Part shown: positions 8,120-36,118 of the stretch, in pieces
How positions within the stretch are numbered: the first letter of the stretch is position 1
Layout of the letters: each line of letters begins with the position of its first letter
DNA from: Flavobacterium sp.
Lineage (GTDB): Bacteria > Bacteroidota > Bacteroidia > Flavobacteriales > Flavobacteriaceae
Reading direction: 5' to 3'
DNA: 38,188 nt
Assembly (NCBI RefSeq): GCF_029242675.1
Contig: NZ_JAQWTM010000035.1
Span: forward strand, 1-38,188
Notes under the pieces: model-generated
What the model was told of the DNA's origin: nothing
Database searches by the model: none
Seen by the model: only the letters and a program-made list of their open reading frames with translations
Translations under genes and position numbers: made by a program

Positions 8120-8427
8120 AAAAACCATTTATAAACTGTTTTTAGGTTTCAAACTTCGCGTACTTTTTTTGTAGGGCAACAAAAGAGTAAAGCGTCTCAA
8201 TACTATTACTGAGATTACAAGCTGTTCTTTAGGAAAAGGTGTTTTTAGGAAATGTATTCGAAGGCGGAAGCGGCTTTACATACAATTAATTATACAGTGG
8301 TATTTATAGTATAACTAGTTTTTAATCTTGTACTTAGCAATGCTAAAGTAAGAAAAAAACTATTTGAAAAACATTTTGGTAAAAAAAATATTTCAAAAAC
8401 GTCGGGAGGATTGAAAAACGGGAGTAA

Positions 8428-8526
8428 TAGCCCTGATAGGAGCGTGTATCCTTTTTATTTTGAGCTGTTTTTTAGCTCAAAATAAAAAGATACTGCGTAT
8501 AGCGGGTGTAAATGTGTCCTGAAAAA
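8428..8526 (-). repeat. Dispersed intergenic element, copy 1 (16-bp perfect AT-rich stem, 7-nt loop, conserved flanks)
   Basis: tagccctgatag..agcg..atcctttttatt...aataaaaagatac.gcg.atagcggg...tcctgaaaaa shared with the copy at 36035-36118. Stem arms 8451-8466 and 8474-8489. Confidence 0.8.
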
Positions 8527-8548
8527 GGAAACGATCTGCTCCTAAAAA

Positions 8549-9763
8549 TTATCGAAAGGCCTTGATTCTAGAAACTAAAATTGCAATTACAAGTCCGAAT
8601 ATTCCAATAAAAGCAAACGAAAAACGCAGTCCAAAAAGTTCGGCTATGTATCCAATTACCGGTGGCCCCATTAAAAAACCAAGGAAACTAACGCTCGAAA
8701 CGGCTGTAAGTGCCTCGCCTGGCGGGATTGTTGGGTGCTTACCTGCAAGACTATATAAAGTTGGGACGATAGTCGATACGCCCAATCCTACGATCATAAA
8801 TCCTATGGTTGACGGAACCAAATACGGGAAAAATACGGCGGTAAAAAGTCCGGTTGAAATAAGGATACCTCCTCCTTGTATTACTGCTTTTCGACCAAAT
8901 TTATTTATCATGCCATCACCGAAGAAACGTCCGGTTGCCATCATTATCATGAATGAGATATACCCTAAAACAATGAGTTCACCGGGCGCTTTGACAACAT
9001 CCTTGAAATAAACACCGCTCCAGTCAAACATGATTCCTTCGCTGGCCATACAACCAAATCCTATGACTCCAAGCCACAACAAGGCAGCATCAGGTTTAGA
9101 AAATAATTTTGTTTTTTGGGTTGCTTTGGGAAGTTCTTTGGCTTTGATTAAATAATGGTAATTAAGAACTACCAAAAGGATTACAACGGTCCCTACGATT
9201 AAAAAGTGCTCGTGAGGTGTTAACTCTAAATACAACATTCCCAAACCTATTAGTGCTCCCGTAAAACCGGCAAAACTCCATACCCCATGAAAGGAGGCCA
9301 TGATCGTTTTATTAAAAAGTTTCTCAGTATAAACGCCTTGGGTATTGACTGCGATGTTGTTCATATTGCCAAAGATTCCAAAGAGAAAAAGGCTAAAGGC
9401 CAGTTGCCAAGCCGAAGTTGCAAGTCCTAAATTAGACAAGCAAATGGCATACATTATAACCGAGAAAACCACTAAACGATGACTGCCATAGCGAGTAACT
9501 AATTTTCCGGAGAATGGCATCATAACCAATTGTCCAACCGGAAGTGCAAATAAAATACTCCCTAGATCCGCATCGCTAAGCGCTAATGTCATTTTGATAT
9601 CTGGAATTCTGCTGGCCCAAGTGGCAAAACACAATCCCATACCAAAGTAGAAAGCTGAGACCGCAAGACGTATCCGATTGAGATACGACTGCTTCGCTTT
9701 TCTAAAATTTTTTTTGATTTTTCCTTGAGCTGTAAAGCTTCCTATAAAATTTAAACGTAACAA
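8549..9763 (-). CDS. MFS transporter
   Basis: 12-TM-like hydrophobic profile; MFS-type loop (GKLVTRYGSHRLV); FGRKAVIQGGGILISTGLF in the second half. Confidence 0.85.
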   Translation of the reverse strand: MLRLNFIGSFTAQGKIKKNFRKAKQSYLNRIRLAVSAFYFGMGLCFATWASRIPDIKMTLALSDADLGSILFALPVGQLVMMPFSGKLVTRYGSHRLVVFSVIMYAICLSNLGLATSAWQLAFSLFLFGIFGNMNNIAVNTQGVYTEKLFNKTIMASFHGVWSFAGFTGALIGLGMLYLELTPHEHFLIVGTVVILLVVLNYHYLIKAKELPKATQKTKLFSKPDAALLWLGVIGFGCMASEGIMFDWSGVYFKDVVKAPGELIVLGYISFMIMMATGRFFGDGMINKFGRKAVIQGGGILISTGLFTAVFFPYLVPSTIGFMIVGLGVSTIVPTLYSLAGKHPTIPPGEALTAVSSVSFLGFLMGPPVIGYIAELFGLRFSFAFIGIFGLVIAILVSRIKAFR

Positions 9764-14518: not shown

Positions 14519-14663
14519 GGAGCTACTTCCTGCCTTTCATTACATTCTTATTTATAGACCTTGCTTTTCTAAGGCATACAAGGAGCTTTTTACAGTCGCT
14601 CTTGTATACCGCGAAAAACAGCGGCCTATTGCATAAGGAATTCCATTGCAGTCAGGGCTAGGA
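14519..14663 (+). repeat. Dispersed intergenic element, copy 2 (long form)
   Basis: gggagctacttcctgcc...caaggagctttttacagtcgctcttg...gtcagggctagg aligns with the copy at 17953-18099. Confidence 0.7.
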
Positions 14664-17133: not shown

Positions 17134-17550
17134 TTAAAAAACAGAACGCTCCTCAGCTTTCAAATGAATCCATTTTTTATCACTATTCAGTTTAAAAGTA
17201 CCTATGTGTTCGCGGTTCCATTCTTGGGGCGAAATCAAGGATAAAAAGTTCACACCCGCCGCATCGCGGTACAAATGATAAATCTCGCCTATGACCGGCT
17301 CAAACGAAAACTTAGCGCTGTACACCAACTCATTCCATTCGTATTCCTCCATCAGCTGCTGGTATTGCAACTTCAGCTCGTTAAATTTCAACTCCAGTTC
17401 CTTATTCACCGTAGTAATCCCTCTACTCTTCCACGACACTAAATCATCCACCCTAATCACAGGCGCACCCACCGTTGTAGCATAAGGCAATACATTAGCA
17501 TTGTATCCCTCCTCTGCAGAGTACACAATGTTATCTGGTTTTTTATTTTC
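17134..17550 (-). CDS. Small conserved protein, probably DUF2452-like
   Basis: MENKKPDNIVYSAEEGYNANVLPYATTVGAPVIRVDDLVSWKSRG...SLISPQEWNREHIGTFKLNSDKKW. Start taken at MENKK; family assigned from memory. Confidence 0.6.
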   Translation of the reverse strand, partial: ENKKPDNIVYSAEEGYNANVLPYATTVGAPVIRVDDLVSWKSRGITTVNKELELKFNELKLQYQQLMEEYEWNELVYSAKFSFEPVIGEIYHLYRDAAGVNFLSLISPQEWNREHIGTFKLNSDKKWIHLKAEERSVF

Positions 17551-17749
17551 CATTTTGTTTATCATTTACATTGCAAAGTTAAACAAAAAATTAAAACCGA
17601 AACCCAATCTTACCATTTTCAGTACCTAAAATATAATTTTGATGTTACTCTCTAAAACCAAAAACAGTTAAAAGCCATGATATTCAACAAAGTCGCATTT
17701 TTTAGTATCAAAAAATAGCATATTATCATTTATTTAGCCTAAATTTTAC

Positions 17750-17952: not shown

Positions 17953-18099
17953 TAGGAGCAATTCCCGCCCTCCGCTTCACTCTGTTTTGTACCGCTTTGT
18001 TTTTTAAGGACCGCAAGGAGCTTCTTGCAGTCGCTCTTGCAGCCCAAAAAAACTACAGCCGCCCTGCAACAGGAGTTTCGCTAGGGTCGGGGCTAGGGG
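17953..18099 (+). repeat. Dispersed intergenic element, copy 3 (long form)
   Basis: aggagcaattcccgccctccgctt...gcaaggagcttcttgcagtcgctcttg...cgctagggtcggggctagg; termini match copies 1 and 4 read on the minus strand. Confidence 0.7.
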
Positions 18100-18247: not shown

Positions 18248-19321
18248 ATGGAGGATGAAGCAATCCCTTTAAAGGCAGTTGACTTTTTCTGCGGCGGAGG
18301 CGGCATGAGTTATGGAATGTTAGAAGCAGGGATAAATGTTCTAGCAGGGATTGACTATGAGCCAAATTGCAAAAAAACATATGAAGATAATATAACTGGA
18401 GCCCAGTTTATACAAGCTGATGTTTTTGAATTGGAAGAACAAGAATTGGAAGACAAATTAAACTTAACCAAAAATGATGACGATTTAATCTTAATTGGTT
18501 GTAGTCCTTGCCAGTTTTGGAGTATTATCAATACCGATAAGACCAAATCAACAAAATCAGCTAATTTATTAATAGAGTTTACTCGTTTTGTAAAATACTT
18601 TAACCCAGGTTATGTAGTAGTAGAAAACGTTCCAGGAGTTTTAAGAAAGAAAAATGAAAGCGGACTAGAAGATTTTATAATTTGGCTCGAAAAAAATAAT
18701 TATAAAGTACACTTTGAAGTTCATAATGTAGCAGAATATGGTGTACCCCAAAGTCGAAAAAGATTTACGTTAATAGCAAATCGTGTAACAAACGAGTTAA
18801 TCGATTTGATAAAAAAAGAAGGCAAAAAAGTTACTGTTAAAGATGTTTTAGGTGAAACTAATGGTTTCTCTAAAATTAAGGATGGTCATAAAGACGAAAC
18901 AGCATTTTTACACACTGTAGCGTCTATATCTGCTATTAATAAAAGAAGATTGAAAAAAGTAGCTAAAGACGGCGGAAATAGATTAGGCTTTGCAAATGAT
19001 CCTGAATTACAATTAGCTTGTTTTGAAGGTAAAGACAGTTCCTTTAAAGATACTTTTGGACGTTTATGGTGGGACAAACCATCACCTACAATTACAACAA
19101 AGTTTTTTAGCATCTCAAATGGTCGTTTTGTTCATCCCGATGAAGATCGTGCTTTATCATTACGTGAAGGAGCAACATTACAATCATTCCCTAGAGACTA
19201 TAAATTTCATGGAACAAGTACTTCAGCCATAGCTCGATTAATTGGTAATGCAGTACCTCCTCAATATGCAAAATGTATAGGCGAGGCAATAATTAATAAT
19301 CACATAAATGGCGCAATTTAA
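18248..19321 (+). CDS. DNA (cytosine-5-)-methyltransferase
   Basis: Motif I AVDFFCGGGGMSYGMLEAG; IV GCSPCQFWS; VI VVENVPGVL; VIII QSRKRFTLIANR; IX RALSLREGATLQSFP; X IGNAVPPQYA. All catalytic motifs intact. Confidence 0.96.
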   Translation: MEDEAIPLKAVDFFCGGGGMSYGMLEAGINVLAGIDYEPNCKKTYEDNITGAQFIQADVFELEEQELEDKLNLTKNDDDLILIGCSPCQFWSIINTDKTKSTKSANLLIEFTRFVKYFNPGYVVVENVPGVLRKKNESGLEDFIIWLEKNNYKVHFEVHNVAEYGVPQSRKRFTLIANRVTNELIDLIKKEGKKVTVKDVLGETNGFSKIKDGHKDETAFLHTVASISAINKRRLKKVAKDGGNRLGFANDPELQLACFEGKDSSFKDTFGRLWWDKPSPTITTKFFSISNGRFVHPDEDRALSLREGATLQSFPRDYKFHGTSTSAIARLIGNAVPPQYAKCIGEAIINNHINGAI

Positions 19322-22298
19322 AACAAGAGCGAGAGCATTAGATTTATTAGGTCGTCAACAAATTGCTGGAATTCCAACAGCTATCAATGAACTTATTAAA
19401 AATGCTCATGATGCTTATGCAGATAAATTTGATATTGATTTCTTGAGAAAAGATAATTTACTTATCTTAAGGGATGATGGTTTAGGAATGACTAAAGAAG
19501 AGTTTGAAACAAGATGGTTAACTATTGGCACAGAAAGTAAATTTGTAAATAGAAAAACTCTATTACCTCCAAAAGATTCATCTAAACCATTAAGACCTGT
19601 AATGGGGGAAAAAGGAATAGGACGATTAGCTATAGCATCTATTGGTAAACAAGTTTTGATTATATCTAAAGCTAAACAAAGAGAAAAAGTATATAAAATT
19701 GTTGTAGCCTTCATCAATTGGGAATTATTTGAATTACCCGGAATTAACCTCGAAGACATTGTTATACCAATAAGTGAGTTTGATGAACTTCCTGATTTAA
19801 TTCAATTTCACGATTTAAAACAAGATGTTCTAAATTCTCTAAAAGAACTTAAAGATAAAGATATAATATCATTAGACGATTATGAAAGAATAACTCTTTC
19901 GGTAATTAATTTCGATATTGATCCAAAAAAGATTAATAATAATCTAGTTGGAGATTTTAAATTTAATGAGGAGAGAGGTGGTACTTTTTTCTATATAAAT
20001 CCTGTTAGTGAAAATTTAATTTTTGACATTGAAGGTAATAAAGAAACTAAAGAAGCAACAAAGATTGAAAAAATGCTTATTGGCTTTCACAATACTATGA
20101 CTCCAAATCATCCTAAACCAGTAATTGATATTTCATTTAGAGATTATAGAGGAGATGATGGGGCATATAATAACATAATTGATAAAGAGCAATTTTTCAC
20201 ACCACAAGAATTTGAAATTGCTGACCATCACTTTGAAGGTACCTTTGATGAGTATGGTCAATTTAAAGGCAATATAAATATTTATGGAGAAAAAGAATAT
20301 GAAAATCATATTGTAAATTGGAATGGTAATAATTTTAAAGAAACTGATTGTGGACCATTTAAAATTAATTTTGTTTATATCCATGGTGACTTAAAAAGTT
20401 CAAAGATTGATCAACAAAACTGGGCAATATTAAGTAATAAAACAAACAAATTTGGAGCTCTATACATATATAAAGACAATATAAGGGTATTACCATATGG
20501 AGATATTGATTTTGATTTTCTCAGTATTGAAAAAAACAGAACCAAAAGAGCAAGTACTTATTTTTTCTCACATAGGAGAATGTTTGGTGTAATTGAAATA
20601 AATAGTAATAACAACTATAAACTTGTTGAAAAAGCTGGAAGAGAAGGTTTCATAGAAAACAAGGCATTTAGGCATTTTCAAGAAATACTCAAAAATTTTG
20701 TTTTACAATTAGCTTCTGATTTTTTTGATCCAAGTGGAAAAACAGTTCAGTCGGAATTTTATCAAAAAAAGAAAGAAGAAATATATACTTTGCATAATGC
20801 TTTAGAAAGAAGAGACAAGCTTGCTAAAAGTAAAAAAGAAAAATTTATTCAAAATTTAGATGCTTTTTTTAAAGATTTAACTTCAAGTCTATTCGAAAAG
20901 AATGTAAATAGAATTATAGATGAAACAAAGAAAAATCTAAATTCAATAATTTATATAAAGGATATTGATGAAGCTAGTCAAAAAATTATTGATTATGAAT
21001 TTGAAGCCCGACAAAAGATAAATGATTACAAAAAAAATATTACACTTTATGGACCTAAAGGATTCACAATATCTAAAGAAAATCGAATAGATTTCGAAAC
21101 CTATTTAAAAGAATTTAAAGTTTTAGAACAAAATATATTTAATAAAGCTAATAGTGAAATTGATAATTTAGTTGAAGAATATATTACCAAATTAGACATC
21201 GAAATAAGTAAAAGGAAGAGGCTGGAACAAGCAGTAGAATTTATTTCTTTTGAAGCTAAAAAAACGAACACTAAAAAACGAAAAGAAACAAACGAATTAG
21301 TTACTGATGTTTCAAAGAAAATAAAAGAATTAACTTCTGATTTGATGTTAGATTTAGATAATCAAATTAGGTCTGTAAAAGACAAATTCAAACATCTTAG
21401 CACAAATAATATTGAAGATTTTAATCTCGTCGCAGAGAGAAAATCTATGGAGGATGAGATTGAATTAATAAGTAACCGTAACACATTTGTTATGGATAGA
21501 ATAATAAGACAGTTTGAAAGCTTTTATATTGAAAAAGATAATGATGGTCAAATTATCACAAACGATCAAATATCAGATGCAATGTCTGAAGAACTGGAAG
21601 AATTAAGAGAAAGAGTTCAAGCTGATATTGAATTAAGCCAACTTGGTTTAGCTGTTGGTATTTTACACCATGAATTTAGCAGTACAGTTCGCTCAATCAG
21701 AGGAAGTATAAAAGATTTAAAAGCGTGGTCTGATGTTAATCAACAGCTTGATAGTGTTTATAAAAATATTAAGGTAAACTTTGAACACCTTGACGGTTAT
21801 CTAAATTTGTTTACTCCACTAAATAGAAGACTAAATAGGAGACGAGAAGATATTTCTCTAATGGAAATAAAATTATTTCTTATTGATTTATTTAAATCTA
21901 GATTAGAGAGGCATAACATAGATTTTAAACACACAAAAGGCTTTTCTTCTCAAAAAATAAATGGATTTCGCTCAACATTCTATCCTGTTTTTGTTAATCT
22001 GATTGACAATGCAATATACTGGTTAAATAAAAGTAATGTAGAAAGTAAAATAATTAGAATGCACGCTGATGATACTGGCGTTTATATTAGTAATAATGGT
22101 ATTGAAATTCCAATTCAAGATAAAGACAGAATCTTTGATTTAGGTTTTTCGAGAAAACAAAATGGTAGAGGTATGGGATTAAGTATTAGTAAAGAAGTTT
22201 TAAATGCGGAAAATTATAACATATCTGTGGTCACTCCTCGAGAGGGAAGCACTGTTACCTTTAGAATTGTACAAAATAAATCAAACGACAATGATTAA
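19308..22298 (+). CDS. Dual-GHKL ATPase: N-terminal MORC/Hsp90-like ATPase, coiled-coil middle, C-terminal histidine-kinase-like H-box and HATPase
   Basis: N-terminal N-box ELIKNAHDAYAD, G1 RDDGLGM, G2 GEKGIGRLAIAS. C-terminal H-box-like GILHHEFSSTVRSIRG, N-box NLIDNAIYWL, G1-like ISNNGIEI, GRGMGLSISKEVL. Confidence 0.92.
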   Translation: MAQFKTRARALDLLGRQQIAGIPTAINELIKNAHDAYADKFDIDFLRKDNLLILRDDGLGMTKEEFETRWLTIGTESKFVNRKTLLPPKDSSKPLRPVMGEKGIGRLAIASIGKQVLIISKAKQREKVYKIVVAFINWELFELPGINLEDIVIPISEFDELPDLIQFHDLKQDVLNSLKELKDKDIISLDDYERITLSVINFDIDPKKINNNLVGDFKFNEERGGTFFYINPVSENLIFDIEGNKETKEATKIEKMLIGFHNTMTPNHPKPVIDISFRDYRGDDGAYNNIIDKEQFFTPQEFEIADHHFEGTFDEYGQFKGNINIYGEKEYENHIVNWNGNNFKETDCGPFKINFVYIHGDLKSSKIDQQNWAILSNKTNKFGALYIYKDNIRVLPYGDIDFDFLSIEKNRTKRASTYFFSHRRMFGVIEINSNNNYKLVEKAGREGFIENKAFRHFQEILKNFVLQLASDFFDPSGKTVQSEFYQKKKEEIYTLHNALERRDKLAKSKKEKFIQNLDAFFKDLTSSLFEKNVNRIIDETKKNLNSIIYIKDIDEASQKIIDYEFEARQKINDYKKNITLYGPKGFTISKENRIDFETYLKEFKVLEQNIFNKANSEIDNLVEEYITKLDIEISKRKRLEQAVEFISFEAKKTNTKKRKETNELVTDVSKKIKELTSDLMLDLDNQIRSVKDKFKHLSTNNIEDFNLVAERKSMEDEIELISNRNTFVMDRIIRQFESFYIEKDNDGQIITNDQISDAMSEELEELRERVQADIELSQLGLAVGILHHEFSSTVRSIRGSIKDLKAWSDVNQQLDSVYKNIKVNFEHLDGYLNLFTPLNRRLNRRREDISLMEIKLFLIDLFKSRLERHNIDFKHTKGFSSQKINGFRSTFYPVFVNLIDNAIYWLNKSNVESKIIRMHADDTGVYISNNGIEIPIQDKDRIFDLGFSRKQNGRGMGLSISKEVLNAENYNISVVTPREGSTVTFRIVQNKSNDND

Positions 22299-23940
22299 TC
22301 CATTTTTCGAAAAATCAAAAGAGATAGCAAACTCTTTTTTACAAAGTATCGTCTTTATTGATGATAAAGCTTATGCAGGAGTAACTCTAGAAGATCCTAA
22401 TCATGATTTTAATGCGCAAAAAGTTTCACTGGCTTTTGCCAAGGAAAAAAAAATATGTGGGGTTTATCAACCAAAAACAAAGCAAGATATTGAAGATTTT
22501 AAATGTATTACAAAAAAGGCAGATGTAATCATTTTAGATTGGAAGATAATCCTTTTAGAAGCTGATATTGAAGACCCAAATGCTGACGACGATGATGATC
22601 CTAGAGGCATTTACACTTTAGATATTATAAAAAACATTTTTTTAGATATTTCTAAAAGTAAAGAAAGTTTAAAACTAATAATAGTTTATACAGGGGAAAC
22701 AGATTTAAATGAAATTACAACACAAATATTTACTGAACTAAATGAAATTAAACCAGGGTTGAAAAAAGAATCATGCAAAGTGTCTTCCAACAATACTAAA
22801 ATATTAATTAGGGCAAAATCGTCTGTTGAGGATGACGAAGTTGACAATAAATTCAACCACATTGTTGGATTAAATGATAAAATTGTCAAATATAAAGATT
22901 TACCGAATTTTATCTTAGATGAATTCACAATGATGACGAGTGGTTTACTTTCTAATTTTGCTTTACTTTCATTAGCAACTTTACGACAGAATTCATCTAA
23001 AATACTAGGTTTATTTTCTAAAAATCTTGATAGTGCATATTTAAGCCATAAAGCACTGTTGCCTAGTCAAGAAGATGCTGAAGATTTGTTAATCGAATTA
23101 TTTGGAGATAGTATTTCAGATTTACTATTCTACAATAAAACAAATGATGTGATAAGAGATATAATTCCTGATTGGGTTGAAGTCAATATAAATGAAGAAG
23201 TACACGAACTGTTGAATAAGATAGGAAAGGGATATGTTCCAATTGAAAATTTCAAACGTTCGCAAAGCTTAATAAATGAACTTCTTCAATCACCAATAAA
23301 AGATATATCAAAGCGATACGCAGAAACTTTTAATAAGGAGGCTGGTGTTTCAAAGTCTAAAATGAAGGATAGTTATGAACATATTTCTTTAAGTAATACA
23401 GTTTTGTTTCTGAACAAAGAAGAACAAATAAATAGAGAAGAAATTGATAAGAAATTTTCAAAATTGGCTCATCATAAAAGTCTATTTATACCAAATGATA
23501 TAATTCCTAAATTAACTCTCGGCACTGTGATAAAAAGCACAACTATTAATGATAAATATTATATATGTATTCAACAGAAATGCGATAGTGTAAGAATACC
23601 TTATGGCAGTGAAAGGAAGTTTCTATTTATTCCATTAGTTTTGTCAGAAGCAAAGTTTGATATTTTAACCCCTGAAGGTTTAAAATTAAAGAAAGTAAAA
23701 GATTCTTTTTCTATAAGAACTATTAAATTTGTTTGTCAAAATGATCAAGGTGTTATTAAAGCAGAACTGAACGAAGATGTTGGTACATTTATATTTAAAC
23801 AAAAATACGAAGATGAATACTTCGAATGGGTTCTTGATTTAAAAGATTTACATTCTCAAAGGATAATTACTGAATATACGTCCCAATTATCTAGAGTAGG
23901 GCTAGATGAATCTGAATGGCATAGAAGGTTTCTAAGTTAA
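22291..23940 (+). CDS. Receiver (response-regulator)-like domain protein with uncharacterised C-terminal region
   Basis: N-terminal receiver-like order: SIVFIDDKA (acidic pair), ADVIILDWKI (candidate phospho-Asp, about D83), LKLIIVYTGE (Thr), TKILIRAKSS (candidate Lys). Start at ATG 22291 overlaps the upstream stop (ATGATTAA). Confidence 0.75.
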   Translation: MINPFFEKSKEIANSFLQSIVFIDDKAYAGVTLEDPNHDFNAQKVSLAFAKEKKICGVYQPKTKQDIEDFKCITKKADVIILDWKIILLEADIEDPNADDDDDPRGIYTLDIIKNIFLDISKSKESLKLIIVYTGETDLNEITTQIFTELNEIKPGLKKESCKVSSNNTKILIRAKSSVEDDEVDNKFNHIVGLNDKIVKYKDLPNFILDEFTMMTSGLLSNFALLSLATLRQNSSKILGLFSKNLDSAYLSHKALLPSQEDAEDLLIELFGDSISDLLFYNKTNDVIRDIIPDWVEVNINEEVHELLNKIGKGYVPIENFKRSQSLINELLQSPIKDISKRYAETFNKEAGVSKSKMKDSYEHISLSNTVLFLNKEEQINREEIDKKFSKLAHHKSLFIPNDIIPKLTLGTVIKSTTINDKYYICIQQKCDSVRIPYGSERKFLFIPLVLSEAKFDILTPEGLKLKKVKDSFSIRTIKFVCQNDQGVIKAELNEDVGTFIFKQKYEDEYFEWVLDLKDLHSQRIITEYTSQLSRVGLDESEWHRRFLS

Positions 23941-23948
23941 TAATCATA

Positions 23949-24725
23949 ATGGCAACCCGTAACCTCTGGACAAAAGAAGAACTAATCCTTGCCTTTAATT
24001 TGTACTTAAAAATTCCTTTTGGAAAGATGCATAGTACAAATAAAGACATCATTCATCTTGCTAATTTAATTGGTAGGAGCTCTAGTTCAATTGCTTTGCG
24101 CCTCGTGAATTTTGCAAGTGTAGATCCTGCGCTACAAGCAAGAGGAATTAAAGGAATGAGTGGCGGGACAAAAATAGTACAACCCATTTGGGACGAGTAT
24201 TTTCATAACCAAGAAGAATTAATCTTTCAAAGTGAAATTTTATTGGCTCAAAAAGAGAATATCACTATTGAAGATAAATATGTAGACCTATATCCTGAAT
24301 TAAAGGATATCAAAGGAGAAACAAAAATAAGAGAAGTTAAAACAAGAGTCAATCAGTCTGTTTTTAGACAAATGATTTTGGCAAATTATAGTACAAAATG
24401 TGCTATTACAGGAATTGATATTCCTGAACTTTTGTTGGCGAGTCATATTGTTCCTTGGTCAATGAACGAAAATGAAAGACTTAATCCTGAAAATGGAATC
24501 TGCCTTTCGGCTTTATACGACAAAGCATTTGACAAAGGAATAATTGGTGTAGATCAAAATTATAAAGTTGTTCTTTCAACCTCTCTAAAAAAGAAAAAGA
24601 ATACTGAGTTCTATCAAAACCACTTTGCGCCTATCGCTAATTTAAAAATTACTAGTCCAATCAAATATTTACCTCGAAAAGAGTTTTTAGAATTCCACAT
24701 GGATACAATATTTGATAGACACTAG
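23949..24725 (+). CDS. HNH endonuclease (HNH_2-like), predicted restriction nuclease
   Basis: NYSTKCAITGIDIPELLLASHIVPWSMNENERLNPENGICLSALYDKAFDKGIIGVD matches the HNH layout of R-M-associated nucleases. N-terminal helical region WTKEELILAFNLYLKIPFGK. Confidence 0.92.
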   Translation: MATRNLWTKEELILAFNLYLKIPFGKMHSTNKDIIHLANLIGRSSSSIALRLVNFASVDPALQARGIKGMSGGTKIVQPIWDEYFHNQEELIFQSEILLAQKENITIEDKYVDLYPELKDIKGETKIREVKTRVNQSVFRQMILANYSTKCAITGIDIPELLLASHIVPWSMNENERLNPENGICLSALYDKAFDKGIIGVDQNYKVVLSTSLKKKKNTEFYQNHFAPIANLKITSPIKYLPRKEFLEFHMDTIFDRH

Positions 24726-35983: not shown

Positions 35984-36034
35984 AATAATGTGTTTGTTTT
36001 AAAGTACAATTTGTGAATGGTACTTCTGGTTTTT

Positions 36035-36118
36035 TAGCCCTGATAGTAGCGGCATCCTTTTTATTCGCCGCGGCGAATAAAAAGATACAGCGGATAGCAG
36101 GAAATAGCTCCTGAAAAA
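36035..36118 (-). repeat. Dispersed intergenic element, copy 4 (28-bp perfect palindrome core)
   Basis: ctttttattcgccgcggcgaataaaaag at 36057-36084, flanked by tagccctgatagtagcggcatc and atacagcggatagcaggaaatagctcctgaaaaa. Confidence 0.85.

Follow-up and report, generated by a model that had tools for sequence, protein, structure and literature searches.

The window, the 38,188-nt stretch of Flavobacterium sp. DNA analysed here, is contig 34 of a fragmented assembly (446 contigs, 3.5 Mb), and it carries four dispersed segments that share the ends GNAGC...TCC-N-GC and N'-GGGCTA around a variable hairpin, as a sequence-only reading of this DNA had described. All four are type A copies of the element delineated below; the orientation assigned to them in that reading is referred to as the reader strand. 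The first (8428-8542; reader strand minus, folded strand plus) has a spacer hairpin of ~28 nt between GGAGC and the core, the second (14519-14660; reader strand plus, folded strand minus) has a long tip containing AAGGAGCTT...CAGTCGCTCTTG, the third (17955-18095; reader strand plus, folded strand minus) also has a long tip, and the fourth (36035-36111; reader strand minus, folded strand plus) is short and sits in the gap separating the flippase stop from dut. The copies had been correctly located, although their ends have been corrected: the span 8428-8526, for example, cuts off the GGAGC end of the first copy together with a portion of its spacer. The covariance model of the Flavo-1 RNA motif (Rfam RF01705; cut-off 42 bits) matches the first, second and fourth copies at 8425-8513 (plus strand), 14522-14663 (minus strand) and 36032-36108 (plus strand) with scores of 53.4, 50.2 and 74.4 bits, respectively, and the third at 17957-18098 (minus strand) with 41.5 bits, half a bit under the cut-off (E = 7 × 10−8 in the short stretch searched). 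Every match in the window falls on the strand opposite to the reader strand. The four segments are thus copies of Flavo-1, a catalogued repeat family.

Three of the four copies follow a unit on the same strand, and not all four as had been proposed earlier. The exception is the third: the nearest upstream ORF (17134-17565, DUF2452) is on the minus strand, and the 6S-like RNA that had been proposed to precede the copy has no Rfam support, although a terminator-like hairpin is present there. Two other features were noted in these regions. Between 14370 and 14480, the 3' tail of tRNA-Asn (agcccaagagagggagctttttaaa) recurs ~100 nt further on, where a terminator-like hairpin of its own accompanies it; two tRNA-Asn genes occupy the corresponding place in some relatives, and the repeated tail may be what is left of another tRNA-Asn gene. 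Just downstream of the third copy, a four-gene cluster (18248-24725) encodes a C5 cytosine methylase, a large double-HATPase protein with a HEF_HK domain, a receiver-domain protein (Response_reg_2) and an HNH endonuclease, and looks like a restriction-type defence system.

Flavo-1 was described by Weinberg et al. (2010; PMC2864571), is typed in Rfam as an sRNA without function, and has been counted with the sRNA families that are most abundant in bacteria (PMC9029176). With 150 of 861 candidates scored, our genome gave at least 113 matches to RF01705, ~108 of them above the cut-off; the copy at 14519 exceeds the cut-off yet is absent from the 113 listed, and the true number must, therefore, be higher. 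A two-block finder, trained on copies of the same genome, recovered 79 distinct copies in the fetched loci and none in shuffled sequence. Taken with the genome matches, this demonstrates that the repeat is not a product of chance.

On the reader strand, a type A element reads T-rich-A-GNAGC, followed after 3-4 nt by TCC-N-GCTATCCGCT-NTATC or -NCAATC; beyond the variable stem-loop come GGATGCCGCT or GGATTTCCACT, then NCTATC-N'-GGGCTA and an A-rich stretch. The tag ahead of the core is mostly GGAGC or GAAGC and rarely GTAGC, and in a subset of type A, to which the copy at 8428 belongs, it is separated from the core by ~28 nt rather than 3-4 nt. The borders of the element, as judged by profile, are short and AT-rich (T-rich-AG ... 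CT-A-rich). The outer module of type A is TTTTTAGGAGC...GGGCTAAAAA, and the internal AAGGAGCTT...CAGTCGCTCTTG module is found within the longer tips of two window copies. Type B combines the same core with a different outer module, GGGCGTGA...TCACGC, and a second variable hairpin: GGGCGTGACC...GGTCGG lies ahead of the core and CCTCACGC after it, and the basal stem varies in a matched way. About two dozen type B copies are present in the fetched loci (L076, L085, L090, L093, L094, L103-L113 and others), many of them still reaching the RF01705 cut-off.

The paired core positions show strong covariation. Across the 79 copies, which were collected by a position-weight scan that does not score pairing, the L7-R15 pair is AT in 51, GC in 14, TA in 9 and CG in 5, such that all are paired, and the mutual information is 1.46 bits against a shuffle maximum of 0.27; these copies are related, so the pair changes are not independent events. 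The L3-R19 pair occurs as four pair types and is 95% paired, whereas L12-R10 and L11-R11 each occur as two types and are 96 and 100% paired, respectively.

The mismatches within the helix reveal which strand folds. These were sorted into A.C on the reader strand, equivalent to a G.T or G.U wobble on the Flavo-1 strand, and G.T on the reader strand, with one count per tip cluster and with core pairs counted per copy; a simple outside-in stem register fails at the conserved bulge, and another register was used for the counts. Wobbles favour the Flavo-1 strand by 30:6 (p = 7 × 10−5), a result against which the finder itself leans, as it awards a bonus to G.T on the reader strand, and the folding energies agree. 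Moreover, the bias is the same whether a same-strand gene lies upstream (19:4) or not (11:1), indicating that the folded strand is set by the element and not by the neighbouring gene or an upstream transcript. For the copies that had been described as sharing the orientation of the preceding gene, the favoured strand is antisense to that gene. The wobble test responds alike to single-stranded DNA and RNA.

Gene context was assigned with a simple, and hence crude, ORF caller for the 88 copies in our genome that have both neighbours. The upstream and downstream genes are, respectively, same/same in 41, opposite/opposite in 24, same/opposite in 10 and opposite/same in 13, so that a same-strand gene precedes the element in 51 copies and is lacking in 37. 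The rule that the element always stands immediately 3' of a same-strand unit fails in the window, at the third copy, and also genome-wide, where the orientation is mixed, which comes close to the random arrangement that the sequence-only reading had named as counting against it. The excess of same over opposite tandem contexts (41:24; p = 0.046) is reversed in another species, G036 (3:13; p = 0.02), albeit with rRNA-linked copies among the loci examined there. Same/same copies lie nearer to the preceding stop (median 36 nt) than to the next start (90 nt), and divergent gaps show no significant avoidance (13 seen against 17.1 expected; p = 0.17). Neither strand carries a T-run after the hairpin, the sequence being A-rich past both ends, and the T-rich stretch before GNAGC persists (0.75 T) when the upstream gene has the opposite direction. 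We considered whether the elements target terminators and rejected this: left-end terminators number 16 against 11.8 expected from shuffles, and few are strong, although a handful of copies do adjoin strong terminators at this end. A rough hand count on a noisy skew map of G036 gave no lagging-strand bias (17 plus/14 minus and 17 plus/16 minus on the two presumed replichores).

The behaviour of individual sites was followed in G243, the relative that came out closest at the flippase locus (86% DNA identity there), of which 800 kb was read and which served as the only relative in the orthologue test. At 24 of our sites, both flanks could be aligned; the element is kept at 22, comprising 20 seen by the finder and two of the long type that it missed but that are visible in the sequence, and a relic remains at the other two (L105 and L013). 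For a few of the 20 finder-seen pairs, the flanks are poorly conserved and orthology is less certain. None of the 24 sites offers a clean empty counterpart or a target duplication in this comparison. The cores are mostly 0.88-1.0 identical, in many cases more so than the intergenic flank, and changes on both sides of core pairs are seen between orthologues of the 8428 copy (A-T to G-C), L082 and L089, and within the stem of L087. The second window copy likewise has its orthologue at the same site. The tip, by contrast, can be replaced as a whole between conserved flanks: this has happened at the fourth window copy (36041 in the window), where site and orientation are unchanged in G243, and at L114, L023 and L093.

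Tip replacement is most apparent at the L022 site, where our genome and seven relatives all have an element in the same place and orientation, and the eight species between them show at least six tips. Several of these tips are 0.94-0.98 similar to tips at other loci: our own resembles those of L007 and L086 (0.97), two copies that have flank sequence in common with the 16S-linked L009; that of G070 resembles our L020 (0.98); and those of G294 and G254 resemble our L025 (0.98). In G246, both arms carry the other core variant. The simplest reading of these sequence comparisons would be that core and tip are exchanged between copies at fixed sites, although repeated insertion into one place may be an alternative. 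Near-identical copies were also considered as proof of transposition and rejected as such, because the cluster in question (L004, L007, L009 and L086) shares right-flank sequence, and L009 adjoins 16S rRNA.

Occupancy varies among species at other sites. Of 30 flippase-dut loci, our own included, 12 have an element or relic of the short or long type just after the flippase stop and the others have a gap without one. At L012, some species have an intact element, some a decayed one and some none. Within the genus, 35 of 37 genomes (again including ours) have matches, ranging from one in some to ~65 or more in many, and two have none; phylum-wide, 45 of 297 genomes match, spread over 23 of 140 genera, most strongly within the same family. 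Additionally, a 42 kb IMG/VR phage contig (L188) bears an intact type A copy at 9085-9200, directly after the stop of a 347-aa gene without a PHROG match. Pattern scans of viral sequences returned ten contigs for one pattern, two only with full elements, and no contigs for a second pattern. The phylum distribution and the phage copy fit past horizontal movement.

A further recurrent position is beside rRNA operons. At all six 16S loci examined in G036 (L247-L250, L261 and L262), Flavo-1 lies ~660-900 nt upstream of the 16S gene, as it does in our L009 (contig C16); several of those in G036 are matched by another copy ~6 kb off on the opposite strand, an arrangement that looks as if the pair flanked the operon.

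We consider it probable, on balance, that Flavo-1 elements are old, non-autonomous, intergenic DNA repeats of REP/ERIC-like character whose tips are exchanged among copies, and that they are not 3'-end signals of upstream genes. Each copy can fold into a hairpin built of a conserved core, a type A or type B outer module and a variable tip. The functional form would be the Flavo-1 strand as single-stranded DNA, and copies would have been spread by a hypothetical enzyme acting on this folded DNA; they may now be mainly inherited, with core and tip swapped between copies by recombination or template switching, as the recurrence of tips suggests. The mobile REP/MITE-like character proposed in the sequence-only reading is partly borne out, in that the family is dispersed, intergenic, patchy and phage-borne and its presence varies at one syntenic site; the stability of 22 of 24 sites and the lack of a clean empty site or an associated RAYT run counter to it. 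Its other suggestion, a constant-orientation signal in the upstream transcript for 3'-end formation or RNA processing, is largely refuted by the mixed orientation and the strand bias, and we regard it as very improbable: the three window copies behind same-strand units, the shorter distance to the stop and the few copies abutting strong terminators favour it, but more than a third of copies lack a same-strand gene upstream, the tandem ratio is inverted in G036, no T-run follows the hairpin, and even where a same-strand gene is present the wobbles mark the opposite strand. An sRNA, or another RNA element, transcribed off the Flavo-1 strand in keeping with the Rfam typing would accommodate that bias, the covariation and the conserved unpaired bases, and is less likely than the DNA repeat rather than untenable, although we still judge it improbable. 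Ahead of the Flavo-1 strand, the promoter-like TAnnTTTG shows no enrichment (7 against 8.0), there is no terminator T-run, about half of the copies have this strand antisense to the nearest transcript, and more than 100 copies reside in one genome. Moreover, the transcriptome of Flavobacterium psychrophilum shows no consistent transcription, Flavo-1 being indistinctly sense or antisense to transcribed regions with many copies outside them (PMC9723704).

Core identity above that of the flanks in G243 stands against the DNA repeat reading to the extent that it also fits a selected host function. A non-selfish DNA site that selection maintains in place for the host (for example a nucleoid, topoisomerase or insulator site, along the lines suggested for BIMEs) would account for this conservation, for the retention of sites and for the placement upstream of 16S genes, sometimes with a partner on the other strand, as copies close to rRNA operons, which are heavily transcribed, would assist in containing supercoiling. 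It is less easily reconciled with genomes of the genus that have no copies or one, with decay or absence at L012 and flippase-dut in several species, or with a tip sequence that is free to change, and we think it unlikely, although deserving of some weight. Mobilization by a host RAYT (Y1) transposase, which would make Flavo-1 a true REP family, appears highly improbable. In its favour are the REP-like GGAG/GAAG/GTAG tag, bulged hairpin and intergenic habit, the two RAYT genes in our genome (NF047646; 96-102 bits) and the atypical flanking structures, with copies elsewhere in the genome, reported for subclass 2.6 RAYTs of Bacteroidetes (PMC6006769). However, no Flavo-1 lies near our own Y1 genes, 30 RAYT loci (104 kb) contain two copies against 4.3 expected, five genomes with ~30 to 65 or more copies (G003, G009, G010, G027 and G032) have no RAYT match, and RAYT and Flavo-1 numbers do not correlate across genomes (rho 0.24; p 0.18). 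The cognate RAYT/TnpA suggested earlier is, therefore, not supported; a link in some relative is possible, and genomes now without a match may have had a RAYT in the past. The RAYT test thus yielded no mobilizing enzyme, and no separated pair of strong ends, as expected of a parent element, was seen in the fetched loci of our genome (~1/5 of the total). It is also conceivable, but doubtful, that Flavo-1 sites are fixed docking points at which a putative dedicated, non-RAYT enzyme swaps tips on folded single-stranded DNA in an attC-like or homing-like manner.

Comparison with known systems places Flavo-1 close to, but apart from, several of them. Family assignment by covariance model, folded strand and Bacteroidetes range all agree with RF01705, although our observations go beyond the Rfam entry: the family behaves like dispersed repeat DNA, comes in two outer architectures, faces either way relative to genes and has its tips replaced while the sites stay fixed. 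With REPs and BIMEs, it shares short, intergenic, bulged hairpins in many copies, often 3' of genes and with a G-rich tag near the foot; it differs in that, as a rule, no GTAG tag stands directly at the foot, copies measure 77-145 nt, the tips are very diverse and no RAYT is linked. The CGTC-tagged REPs are likewise palindromic, have been recorded in Bacteroidetes and lack a dedicated transposase, but they are short, with stems of 8-9 bp and a CGTC tag (PMC3733652), whereas the core of Flavo-1 is long and structured and its ends are GNAGC/GGGCTA. ERIC/intergenic repeat units and other MITEs (PMC10969869) resemble it as imperfect intergenic palindromes of ~70-145 bp that are vertically stable and of species-variable copy number; Flavo-1 has far more tip diversity, with tips replaced in place, and neither a MITE-type target duplication (24 orthologous sites) nor a parent element (fetched loci of our genome) was seen. 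Integron attC sites have conserved arms, unpaired conserved bases and a variable terminal structure, and fold on one strand. By analogy, Flavo-1 may be likened to them in all of these respects, but its ends are GNAGC/GGGCTA rather than RYYYAAC/GTTRRRY, and its copies are mostly single and dispersed, whereas attC sites occur in cassette arrays.

The gene-independent strand bias, site retention, tip replacement, two architectures and RAYT test had no match in the literature searched and are, therefore, probably new. If Flavo-1 is a DNA repeat with tip turnover at fixed sites, the numbers of sRNA genes given for Bacteroidota would be too high. It would also represent an unusual evolution of dispersed repeats, in which the site is stable and the hairpin exchanged, that could be tested in culturable flavobacteria.

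Other repeats were encountered alongside Flavo-1. The neighbouring copies L023 and L024, on one contig, contain a CTTCGACAAGCTCAGTATGAC segment in the hairpin tip, possibly another repeat nested there. Additionally, the flippase-dut gap of L129, L135, L140 and L154 holds a different palindromic repeat (GGACAAGTCG.GACTTGTCCCTAC), which fills the gap in some relatives without Flavo-1 and stands beside Flavo-1 in others.
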